A stretch of DNA of 39,343 nt, taken from an uncultured Flavobacteriales bacterium. Lineage in GTDB: Bacteria > Bacteroidota > Bacteroidia > Flavobacteriales_D > Crocinitomicaceae. Both the position numbers and the translations under genes were made by a program. Location: NCBI GenBank assembly GCA_913056215.1, contig CAJXMN010000015.1:1-39343 (forward strand), written 5' to 3'. The notes beneath the pieces are model-generated. The model did not search any database. It worked only from the letters and a program-made list of their open reading frames with translations, and was not told the DNA's origin. The first letter of the stretch is position 1. Every line of letters starts with the position of its first letter. Below are positions 32,339 through 35,544 of the stretch, piece by piece.

Positions 32339-33895
32339 ATGGGTAACGAGATGGAAGAAAAGAACGAGAAATTGTTAGCGAAACGCGCTGAAGCCAAGCT
32401 AGGTGGTGGTGAAAAACGCATCGAAGCACAACATAAAAAAGGCAAGTTAACTGCTCGGGAACGTATCGAATTGCTCGTAGATGAGGATTCATTCCAGGAG
32501 CTGGGAATGTTCGTGGAACATCGTTCGAAAGATTTCGGTCTGGACAAACAAAAAATTGCTGGTGATGGTGTTGTTACTGGGTATGGTACAATTCACGGTC
32601 GACCGATTTATGTATTTTCACAAGATTTTACAGTTTTAGGAGGTTCGCTTTCTGAGACACATGCAGAGAAGATCTGTAAGATTATGGACCTCGCGTTGAC
32701 GAGCCAAACACCGTTGATTGGTCTAAATGATTCGGGAGGAGCTCGTATTCAGGAAGGAGTGGTTTCTTTGGCTGGTTATGCTGATATTTTCTATCACAAT
32801 ACCCGTGCTTCGGGTGTCATTCCTCAATTGAGTGTCGTTATGGGGCCTTGTGCCGGTGGAGCCGTTTATTCTCCAGCTCTAACAGATTTCATCTTTATGG
32901 TAGAGGATACTTCTTATATGTTTGTTACTGGGCCAAACGTGGTGAAAACCGTGACTCACGAGGAAGTGACCTCAGAAGATCTTGGAGGTGCAAAGGCGCA
33001 CGCAGAGAAATCTGGAGTCAATCATTTTACCAGTGCGAATGACGTAACGGTACTGAAGGATGTGCGCGATTTGATGTCGTATTTACCCCAGAACCACAAT
33101 TCAACTGCGCCGCATACGGAAGCATTTGACTTCGACGAAAAGAAATTAGATACAATTGCTGGTATTTTACCCGATAACTCAAACATGCCTTACGATATCC
33201 GTGAGGCAATCGATTGTGTGATCGATGATAATTCCTTCAGAGAGGTGCACAAAGACTTTGCAACAAACATCGTAGTAGGATTTGCACGTGTGGAAGGAAG
33301 AACAATTGGAGTTGTAGCAAACCAACCAATGTCGCTAGCGGGAGTACTGGATATCGATTCATCAAGAAAAGGAGCGCGTTTTGTACGCTTCTGTGACGCT
33401 TTTAATATTCCACTATTAACATTCGAAGATGTGCCAGGATTCTTGCCAGGAACGGATCAGGAGTGGAATGGAATTATTGCACATGGAGCGAAGTTGCTTT
33501 ATGCATTTAGCGAAGCAACTGTTCCACGTATTACGATCATTACGCGTAAAGCCTACGGCGGAGCCTTTGATGTGATGAACTCAAAAAATATCGGCGCTGA
33601 CTTGAACTTTGCATGGCCTTCTGCTGAGATAGCCGTAATGGGAGCAAAAGGAGCTGCGGAAATCATCTTCAAAAGAGAAATTGCAGCAGCAGGAGATCCG
33701 GAAGCAAAACTTAAAGAGAAGGAGGAAGAATATGGAGACATGTTTGCGAATCCTTACCGAGCGGCAGAACGCGGTATTATCGATGATGTGATCAAGCCAG
33801 CGGAAACGCGTGCTAAAGTTGTTGCTGCTTTCAAAATGCTGGAGAACAAGAAAGAAGAGTTGCCGCCGAAGAAGCACGGGAATATTCCGATGTAG
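32339..33895 (+). CDS. Acyl-CoA carboxylase, carboxyltransferase (beta) subunit
   Basis: This 518-residue carboxyltransferase of the PccB/MmdA family moves CO2 from biotin to an acyl-CoA, usually propionyl-CoA. The N-terminal half has [45 protein letters not shown] and [12 protein letters not shown] with the oxyanion [13 protein letters not shown]. The C-terminal half has [30 protein letters not shown] and the second oxyanion segment [10 protein letters not shown]. All conserved elements are present and the length is normal. The biotin carboxylase and biotin-carrier subunits are not adjacent, so they must be encoded elsewhere. M5 (32351) is an alternative start. Confidence 0.95.
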
Positions 33896-33901
33896 GGTGG
33901 G

Positions 33902-34316
33902 GAGTATTGAGCAAGAGTATTGAGCAGGAATAGTGTTTATTGATGTAGTCAAGATGCGTATAATCTTATCACAGTTTTCGATGACGATCTTTCTCTTTCC
34001 ATCGTGGCTAATGATATATTTAGATTCAATAAATAGCTGAAGCCAATATAAAGTCTCGTTTGCCTCTTTCGAGAGGTGTTTTTTTTGTGATAAAAGCTCT
34101 TCGACTAAAAGCATAATTCGCTTCAGAAATAGTTGCTACAATGGATGTCGCACTGCGTAGTAATTGTTTCGATATAACAAACGCTTTTCTTGCAACTAAA
34201 GATTTATGGAGCTCAATTATTTCTAATGAAAAATTAAATGATTGTTACAAACAATGGGTTTTGATCCATAATTTACTTTTTTCTTTAAAACTACTCACTA
34301 CTCTTGCTCTCTACTC
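33902..34316. mobile_element. 415-base element with inverted ends carrying a broken four-helix-bundle gene
   Basis: The left end 33902-33926 and the reverse complement of 34292-34316 match at 21 of 25 positions. Both contain the core GAGCAAGAGTA and have an internal repeat structure (GAGTATTGAGCA appears twice at the left). Between them lies only the decayed four-helix-bundle gene on the minus strand. The element sits 6 bases after the carboxylase stop codon, and no target-site duplication was obvious. Confidence 0.5.
33932..34269 (-). pseudogene. Four-helix-bundle (S23/IVS-type) protein gene, frameshifted
   Basis: Three minus-strand frames add up to one protein of the four-helix-bundle family (23S rRNA intervening-sequence type): MDQNPLFVT, then SFNFSLEIIELHKSLVARK, then VISKQLLRSATSI and SEANYAFSRRAFI, then KEANETLYWLQLFIESKYI ... 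ENCDKIIRILTTSI. The first break lies near 34237. The second falls in a run of eight A residues (34079-34086), where seven would restore the frame. The family is found in rRNA insertion elements and is related to the accessory protein of diversity-generating retroelements; its role as a free gene is unclear. The open frame 33581-34114 on this strand is only the last piece plus antisense carboxylase sequence. Confidence 0.75.
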
Positions 34317-34404
34317 ACTATATCACTCGTCACTAATCGCAGGTTAAACAAAAATGCGTATATTCATATTTCTCAACAATTGACAAACAAAGGAAATAGG
34401 ATAT

Positions 34405-35544
34405 ATGACAGAATTACAATCAAAACTTCCCCATGTAGGCACCACGGTTTTTACGGTGATGTCGAAAATGGCGCAGGAACACAAAGCAATTAATTTATCA
34501 CAAGGTTTTCCCAATTTTAATGTGGCTGAACAGTTACTAGACAACTATCATAAGGTTATTGATGGCAATTATCATCAATATAAACCCATGCCTGGGGATG
34601 GTCGCTTGCTGAATGAGGTAGCTCAAAAGGTGGAGACACACTATGGAAGAAGCATTCATCCGGAAAACGAGTTGTTAATCACGGCTGGAGCAACACAGGC
34701 CATCTTTACAGCGATTCAGGCGATTATTCACAAAGGCGATGAGGCAATTGTTTTAGATCCATCTTATGATTGTTATGCACCCAGTGTTGAATTAGCTGGC
34801 GGAGAACCGATCCACGTGAATCTGAATGCTAATTTCACCGTAGATTGGGACAAGGTGGAGGATCAGATTTCGAAGAACACGAAGTTGTTGGTGATCAATA
34901 ACCCCCATAATCCTGGCGGTCGCGTTTTATCAATGCAAGATATTGAGGCGTTAGAACAAATTATGAAACGGCATCCACATGTTTTTTTACTGTCGGATGA
35001 AGTGTACGAATTCATTCATTTTGAAGAACCACACATCTCAATCAATACACGGGAGGCGCTTTACGAACGTTCGATCATAGTATCGTCCTTTGGCAAAACC
35101 TTTCACGTAACAGGTTGGAAAATAGGTTACGTAGTGGCGCCTGAAGCGATCATGAAAGAGATCAAAAAAGTACATCAATATGTAGTCTTTTGTGTCAACA
35201 GTACGGCACAGGAAACATTGGCGAGCTACTTACCACAAGTTGACCTTGGAGATCTCAGCACATTCTACCAACAGAAACGCGACTTTTTTCGTGAACGCAT
35301 GAAAGACAGCCGATTTGAGTTGTTGCCATGCGAAGGATCTTACTTCCAGGTTGCAAGGTATAATGCGATTAGTGATTTGGGAGATGTGGATTTTGCCAAG
35401 GAAATGACACAAAAACACGGTGTGGCAGTAATTCCTATTTCAGGATTCAACAAAGATAAGCACGACGATCATTTGATCCGTTTTTGTTTTGCAAAAGATG
35501 AAGACACCATAATTAAAGCAACAGAATTATTATGCAAGATTTAA
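34405..35544 (+). CDS. PLP-dependent aminotransferase, methionine-aminotransferase (YbdL/KYAT) type
   Basis: This 379-residue fold-type I aminotransferase begins MTELQSKLPHVGTTVFTVMSK and shows AINLSQGFPNFN, YKPMPGDGRLLNEVAQ, LITAGATQAIF, NNPHNPGGRVL, LLSDEVYEFIHFE and the PLP lysine in SSFGKTFHVTGWKIGYV, ending IRFCFAKDEDTI. The sequence matches the YbdL/kynurenine-glutamine transaminase group, which uses glutamine or methionine as amino donor. Its gene overlaps the nitrilase gene by 13 bases. This pairing with an omega-amidase is the glutamine transaminase and omega-amidase arrangement used to regenerate methionine from its keto acid. KynU in the window makes a kynurenine-related role an alternative. 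Confidence 0.92.
   Translation: MTELQSKLPHVGTTVFTVMSKMAQEHKAINLSQGFPNFNVAEQLLDNYHKVIDGNYHQYKPMPGDGRLLNEVAQKVETHYGRSIHPENELLITAGATQAIFTAIQAIIHKGDEAIVLDPSYDCYAPSVELAGGEPIHVNLNANFTVDWDKVEDQISKNTKLLVINNPHNPGGRVLSMQDIEALEQIMKRHPHVFLLSDEVYEFIHFEEPHISINTREALYERSIIVSSFGKTFHVTGWKIGYVVAPEAIMKEIKKVHQYVVFCVNSTAQETLASYLPQVDLGDLSTFYQQKRDFFRERMKDSRFELLPCEGSYFQVARYNAISDLGDVDFAKEMTQKHGVAVIPISGFNKDKHDDHLIRFCFAKDEDTIIKATELLCKI

Follow-up and report, generated by a model that had tools for sequence, protein, structure and literature searches.

The 23S rRNA-intervening-sequence proteins (IVPs, PF05635) are a family whose function, as far as we are aware, has yet to be established; a related four-helix bundle is Avd, the accessory variability determinant found with diversity-generating retroelements. 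Among short repeats, REP/REPIN sequences are intergenic and tied to RAYT transposases, with solo copies outnumbering the gene, and the STRR of cyanobacteria are heptameric simple sequence repeats. In the 23S rRNA intervening sequences (IVS) of Coxiella and Leptospira, as given in the passages of PMC4990558 that concern them, a single small ORF of the PF05635 family lies between inverted ends; the Coxiella element is 428 nt long and carries a 28-bp stem, cut by RNase III, around its S23p ORF, and mobility of IVS is put forward there as a hypothesis only. Seven-base repeats with particular words form intergenic arrays, exemplified by GGGAATC in Xanthomonas and Nostoc (PMC4692102) and TAACTGA in Beggiatoaceae (PMC4679880). 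In the relevant passages, the papers on heptamer repeats, these two among them, invoke slippage, which both cite as acting at the length of the polymerase footprint, or speculate on regulation and transposon excision, and according to PMC4692102 such repeats are not generally associated with mobile elements; the term "four helix" is absent from both, and S23, 23S rRNA and intervening are absent from PMC4679880. IVP is listed among the domains shown in a figure legend of PMC10910872. Our literature search brought up nothing that connects IVP genes with heptamer repeats, most subscription journals and preprints lying outside its coverage.

The stretch analysed here (the window) comprises 39,343 nt from an uncultured member of the Crocinitomicaceae (own genome, G000; other genomes, contigs and loci carry the handles G, C and L). 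An acyl-CoA carboxyltransferase/decarboxylase-like gene of 518 aa (32339 to 33895, plus strand; best NCBIfam model TIGR01117, below its cut-off) is followed, 6 nt 3' of its stop codon, by the first of two arms, 33902 to 33927 and 34291 to 34316, which are inverted repeats of 26 nt with 85% complementarity; an aminotransferase gene downstream (34405 to 35544, plus strand; NF006569, above its cut-off) defines the junction in relatives. The preliminary description had given 25-base ends with 21 matches, of which the inverted pairing stands and the length needed correction; the position right behind a stop codon and the short repeats inside the ends were borne out. Read in the sense of the IVP gene, the 3' arm (33902 to 33927, plus strand) consists of two copies of GAGTATTGAGCA(A/G), the inverted partner of 34291 to 34316, and the 5' arm (34291 to 34345, minus strand; predicted to pair) joins that inverted-repeat stretch to a degenerate array of AGTGACG, AGTGATA and AGTGAGT, as read by eye. 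Exact copies of GAGTATTGAGCA number two in the window, at 33902 and 33915, and with up to two mismatches there are 8 places vs. 2.95 expected. Between the arms, at 33932 to 34269 on the minus strand, a gene matching PF05635 in a profile search (39 bits) has one internal TAA, and its alignment with an intact relative runs through two frames, 34244 to 34077 and 34069 to 33932. The first piece scores 39.9 bits vs. a curated cut-off of 33.8 and the second, in the other frame, 15.6 bits, while the intact relative L129 reaches 100 bits and matches 2rld by phmmer (E 1.9e-27). A broken gene of the rRNA intervening-sequence family, as first described, is thereby confirmed.

As judged by local alignment, the 250-nt flanks of this gene show inverted pairing at z = 6.6 vs. 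dinucleotide shuffles; a looser cut, z > 4 inverted, is passed by 2/71 distant regions and 2/85 control genes. As judged by shared 8-mers, with flanks taken around the partial HMM match, they are unremarkable (6 shared). In a predicted RNA fold the arms pair around the pseudogene, and the one Rfam match in the window is a tRNA elsewhere in it. The repeat unit of the window arms is 13 nt (7+6), and three in-register ARTK heptads are absent from them in the strict heptad test, whereas tandem seven-base units are seen in the group as a whole. The inverted arms around the broken IVP gene are real, and the window copy is a decayed, atypical member of a class of IVP-plus-arms units, a claim that rests on the arms, the gene and the relatives and not on the heptad test. 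On balance, we favour the view that a small mobile unit is present in the window in decayed form, namely an IVP gene between short, mostly seven-base, repeat arms. A mobile unit of IVP gene and repeat arms is well supported across the loci described below, and the idea of a small mobile unit put forward in the preliminary description is partly supported.

Paired arms were sought with a word-free test, in which the 250-nt flanks of each gene were locally aligned and scored as z vs. dinucleotide shuffles, with a cut of z > 4; controls were 71 stretches at a distance of 600-850 nt and 85 genes bordered on either side by intergenic DNA. The scan took the best 80 of 586 confirmed relatives, these being best matches to one IVP clade; five were dropped for a short flank, leaving 75, and two more fell out of the arm test for flanks with N, leaving 73. 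The genus set covered 36 of 39 IVP places (L002 excluded at a contig end, two others left out), the family set 40 of 42 loci (29 best-scoring and 13 hand-chosen, hence not random), and a plasmid/phage set 15 of 27 plasmid records and 1 of 2 phage records, in which one site of one species is present twice (L309 and L310); for L300 and L313 the ends of the ORF were placed by hand. Arms were paired at 46 of the 73 loci of this best-match scan, 28/36 in the genus and 26/40 in the family, vs. 2/71 distant regions and 6/85 control genes, so that the alignment of flanks suggested at the outset, here run with 250 nt, gave values far above controls in all three sets. Among the plasmid/phage loci, 14/16 were positive, Spirochaetota included, with a Chloroflexota plasmid locus (L311) just below the cut at z 3.8 and the phage locus negative. 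Loci lacking paired arms amounted to 27/73, 8/36 and 14/40 in scan, genus and family, and the intact IVP of the own genome (L001) has none (inverted z -0.7, direct 0.9). At the same cut, scan arms were inverted at 44/73 loci and direct at 9, and genus arms direct at 25/36 and inverted at 17/36. By phylum, as labelled in record titles and with the two loci dropped from the arm test counted as negative, positive scan loci were 27/51 in Bacteroidota, 5/7 in Bacillota, 3/3 in Cyanobacteriota, 2/3 in Ignavibacteriota, 2/2 each in Planctomycetota and Verrucomicrobiota, 1/1 each in Acidobacteriota, Gammaproteobacteria and Patescibacteria, and 2/2 among phylum-unlabelled records; one Desulfuromonadia and one Neomarinimicrobiota locus were negative. 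IVP-plus-arms units are thus found in ten phyla, still by record titles and with four of the phyla represented by one locus each.

The arms are for the most part degenerate arrays with a seven-base period. Mean self-match at lags 7, 14 and 21 was 0.368, 0.358 and 0.349 in 150 arms and 0.262, 0.263 and 0.292 in 146 distant stretches; among the genus loci, lag 8 (0.367) nearly equals lag 7 (0.377), indicating that seven is not the sole unit length. When 3,456 equally degenerate tetramers are compared, the top rank in the 5' arm goes to ARTK (54/75 loci) and that in the 3' arm to its exact complement, MAYT (51/75); distant controls have 0 or 1 of 70 per orientation. One or both are present at 63/75 loci. 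Runs of opposite polarity occur in either arm at 19/75 loci, partly because AATT is identical on both strands; with AATT omitted, the sense form prevails in the 5' arms of 50/63 informative loci (p 3e-6) and the complement in the 3' arms of 43/63 (p 0.005), compared with 27/51 in distant upstream regions. The remaining three bases of the heptamer vary by locus and match between the two arms of a locus, as evidenced by an arm-word cosine of 0.64 within vs. 0.11 between loci (45 loci, permutation p 0.0002). By eye, arrays stand on both sides of many IVP genes, with a different word at most loci (30 genus IVP flanks), and the word follows IVP similarity weakly (Mantel rho 0.18, p 0.001; 61 loci, including close pairs such as L178/L182). 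Other cores, namely AATC, AAAGT and GAGGTCG, were found in the mainly cyanobacterial plasmid set, with seven-base units where read, and the arms of L247 carry AACTGAT, a rotation of TAACTGA. In 30 control stretches of 20 kb, ten of them from one genome (G006), ARTK arrays numbered 12 at period 7 (6 of these in one stretch, with one place counted on both strands) vs. 0 at 8, 2 at 6, 2 at 9, 0 at 5 and 0 at 10.

Gene and word recur together at unrelated sites. The IVPs of L134 and L117/L119 are 78% identical and share the word AATTACG, with no homologous flanking ORFs within about 1.5 kb; that of L141 is 81-82% identical to those of L127 and L128, again at unrelated sites; and the plasmid-borne L308 and L306, from different genera and with unlike neighbours, are 78% identical in DNA over 378 nt and have the same word. 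Similar IVPs with different words also exist (L126/L130, 68%; L118/L134, 64%). Sites without the IVP were compared as well, with lengths taken from BLAST ends and accurate to a few bases. On two plasmids of the same Nostoc strain (C052), 422 nt with the IVP (L306, inverted arms of about 36-38 nt) stand on one and 188 nt of other sequence (L314) on the other, between flanks 89.8 and 99.7% identical. At L307 (Nostoc pNPM1, 1424-1891), 466 nt replace 328 nt within a gene for a DNA cytosine methyltransferase, which has no interruption at L317 and L318, so insertion is not limited to intergenic DNA. L301 has 586 nt between cas2 and cas1 where L316 has 61 nt. About 188, 328 and 61 nt of host sequence are replaced at these three sites, with no clear target duplication; the missing target sequence could be later loss. 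At the L141 site, G006 lacks about 500 nt with the IVP and keeps the array, 57 nt of which align on either side of the IVP in G001; this is not a fixed short duplication. The use of G006 as a clean empty site for L132 was rejected, the site being rearranged with the array kept behind the gene; L141 has no match in the G006 stretches compared for L132.

The units resemble 23S IVS in having a single small PF05635 ORF within inverted ends that pair (in the predicted fold of the window, and by inverted alignment at 44/73 scan loci) and in size, the three lengths between conserved flanks, 422, 466 and 586 nt, being similar to the Coxiella figure quoted above. Unlike 23S IVS, they lie outside 23S rRNA (no ribosomal RNA match in 20 loci tested), behind or between protein genes and in one case inside one (L307), and their ends are locus-specific repeat arrays. 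As a group, though not in the 13-nt unit of the window arms, they are like the heptameric simple sequence repeats in forming intergenic seven-base arrays with particular words, and like REP/REPIN in being short intergenic repeats tied to one gene family, with solo copies exceeding gene copies; unlike REPs, which are defined palindromes, the arrays have variable words, and the number of Y1 transposases explains little of their load. No conserved terminal inverted repeats are common to the copies, as they would be for a DDE transposon or MITE; the words differ between most loci, and none of the three compared sites has a clear target site duplication. A transposon with fixed ends was rejected, as arm words differ between loci.

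In the own genome, where a profile search places IVP matches only on C168, C91 and C15, a BLAST search with a 481-nt stretch of the window picked up the arm words elsewhere as short matches. Four such sites, with gene names read by eye, are beside a clpX-like gene (C25) and behind a hemD-like gene (C88), a thioredoxin-like gene (C94) and a tRNA (C110), and GTATTGAGCANGAG with one mismatch occurs 18 times vs. 3 for the reversed control. The paired pattern of GAGTAKTGAGYA and GAGTA had no place beyond the window, and a 24-nt pattern with 3 mismatches had 2 places; the window junction had no blastn match among plasmids, and GAGTA-type words were absent around 30 family-level IVP genes. The ends are consequently not private to an IVP unit, since their words also stand unlinked as intergenic arrays, nor are they shared by homologous genes, since the words differ between most loci; homologues lacking these ends, and ends found unlinked, were the two observations that the preliminary description had named as refuting it, and literally both were made. 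Of its defined element with own ends, the paired arms, the joint occurrence of gene and word at unrelated sites and the sites without IVP remain, and the fixed ends do not. In much of the genus the arms are, besides, direct and not only inverted, so that the unit is defined by locus-specific, mostly seven-base repeat arms in place of fixed ends.

The carboxyltransferase and aminotransferase genes are adjacent in 7 of 9 same-genus relatives searched, and the IVP is absent from all 7 junctions. At the end of the carboxylase gene, where the preliminary description had suggested looking for empty sites, the closest relative (G009) has arrays: its junction of 247 nt has AGTGACA, AGTGAGT and AGTGATG type words at both ends (by eye). 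The junctions of G003 and G005, 127 and 126 nt, have a hairpin and no array visible by eye. In another genus, in G014 (L045), the same carboxyltransferase gene is followed by an intact IVP that belongs to a distant subfamily and has the opposite orientation, at 2231-2575 on the reverse complement of the locus, with 33/110 residues identical to L129. Words of the GAGTATTGAG type, the same as at the window site, flank this IVP on both sides, which fits arrays staying while IVPs come and go; L045 is either a recurrent site or an old shared array.

At the level of genomes, array load (overlapping matches on both strands to four in-register ARTK heptads, the IVPs' own arms included) rises with IVP number across 150 family genomes (Spearman 0.64, within-genus permutation p 0.0002). 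Median matches were 3 (IQR 1-6) in 21 IVP-free genomes, 8, 16, 27 and 68 with 1, 2, 3 and 4-5 IVPs, and 191 in 21 genomes with 6 or more; most of the IVP-free genomes are nearly without arrays, and three have 14, 20 and 43 matches. In genus g35, nine IVP-free genomes had 0-6 matches vs. 1-101 in nine with IVPs (rho 0.86), and some genera show no such correlation (rho -0.19 in the own genus, 0.01 in g9 and 0.10 in g14). IVP number also follows genome size (0.42); the partial correlation of array load with IVP number is 0.57 on size and 0.37 on size and control, the reversed control pattern itself correlating with IVP number at 0.54 and catching part of the same arrays. Y1 transposase count gave rho 0.30 with array load, falling to 0.14 given IVP number, while IVP number given Y1 retained 0.60; array matches numbered 7 to 550 in the 19 genomes where Y1 matches are lacking and IVPs number at least 3. 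The correlation of array load with IVP number carries no direction.

We considered how else these features may have arisen. Chance, with AT-rich intergenic DNA yielding such repeats anywhere, is hardly credible: the window flanks taken alone are modest by 8-mer sharing, but the rarity of paired arms in distant regions and control genes, the excess of ARTK arrays at period 7 over periods 5, 6, 8, 9 and 10, and the 14/16 positives in a separate plasmid/phage set all argue against it. We also find it very unlikely that the unit is a miniature transposon of the classical kind which a transposase, e.g. Y1 (RAYT-like) as for REP sequences, mobilises in trans. Its small size, its paired ends, the absence of a transposase gene of its own and the weak correlation of array load with Y1 count would be in keeping with such an element, yet the effect of Y1, the transposase family counted, drops once IVP number is allowed for, arrays abound in genomes with several IVPs and zero Y1 matches, there is no fixed end sequence, and the compared sites show missing target sequence with no clear target duplication. 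Somewhat more room, though still on the doubtful side, must be left for heptamer arrays coming first, by polymerase slippage or other means, and serving as tolerant landing places, the IVP neither making nor moving them. At least 36 array sites (by eye, among the matches listed in G002, G003 and G006) lie more than 1 kb from any listed IVP, G009 has arrays without IVP at the junction of the window, G014 has the same word with a distant IVP at the same site, the host's own sequence at the L307 junction carries CAATTCG, and slippage is the explanation cited in the passages of PMC4692102 and PMC4679880 mentioned above. Left unexplained by arrays of this origin are the near absence of arrays from most of the 21 IVP-free genomes, the same word in both arms with mostly fixed polarity relative to the IVP, and the gene and word found together at unrelated sites.

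An element acting at the RNA level is a possibility that we rate as short of probable; here the arms would pair in the transcript and a double-strand cutter like RNase III would free the IVP message, mobility of the DNA being incidental. The inverted arms at 44/73 loci of the best-match scan, the predicted pairing around the pseudogene in the window and the RNase III-cut stem of Coxiella, as that passage of PMC4990558 presents it, are in line with this, but genus arms are more often direct (25/36, vs. 17/36 inverted), and direct arms form no stem, which counts against an RNA-level element, as does the lack of a ribosomal RNA match in all 20 loci tested. In the reading we favour, a mobile unit of IVP gene and repeat arms, the unit would move as a whole by a route able to remove target sequence; target loss together with the lack of a clear target duplication suggests that this is probably not a classical cut-and-paste transposase, and no enzyme for movement came to light in this analysis. 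We infer a biochemical role for the IVP within the unit: the protein may recognise the repeats of the arms, either in DNA or in the form of an RNA stem, and may take part in placing or copying them, host enzymes would do the cutting and joining, and solo arrays would be by-products or remains. By analogy with 23S IVS, a direct role of the IVP in RNA is possible. At this locus, we surmise that the array behind the carboxyltransferase gene received an IVP, by entry or by exchange, which subsequently decayed.

Linking IVP genes to heptamer repeats appears to tie an orphan protein family to a long-known repeat class, joining two puzzles, a common small protein family with solved structures and the bacterial excess of seven-base repeats. 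We tentatively entertain the bolder proposition that IVPs drive heptamer arrays, each recognising its own word (a core, e.g. ARTK, plus a variable trinucleotide), placing or copying arrays in trans and occasionally carrying its own gene between two arms; were this so, a single mobile family for which no transposase is known would have left the unexplained seven-base excess as its footprint. Should the link be causal, it would amount to a widespread class of minimal mobile units in ten phyla whose movement mechanism is directly testable, and it would suggest that IVP genes in CRISPR, restriction and DISARM-like operons are units dropped between genes and not defence parts. As annotated, plasmid IVP genes by or inside defence operons are those of L301, L304, L312, L300 and L308-L311, with positions between cas2 and cas1, upstream of cas1, between hsdS and hsdR, and between a helicase gene (DrmD in one record) and a modification gene.

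Other small features were noted at these loci. At L038 (G002) the carboxyltransferase-aminotransferase junction contains two small genes, toxin-antitoxin-like by eye, and this junction seems to accept inserts often. Hairpin repeats of the GGGCGTATTGCAATACGCCC type stand behind genes in several genomes of the genus (the L039 and L040 junctions; L174 near 9735 and 12789) and are probably terminator-like interspersed repeats. The reversed control pattern has 51 matches in G000 vs. 7 for ARTK heptads, so that the own genome may be rich in another seven-base array. Among the arrays on C168 (upstream flank of L001) and at C88:2973-3154 there is a stretch like CTGAG-ACGAG-GCTGAGG-TCTCGAAGCCC, perhaps a second repeat family that nests with the arrays.
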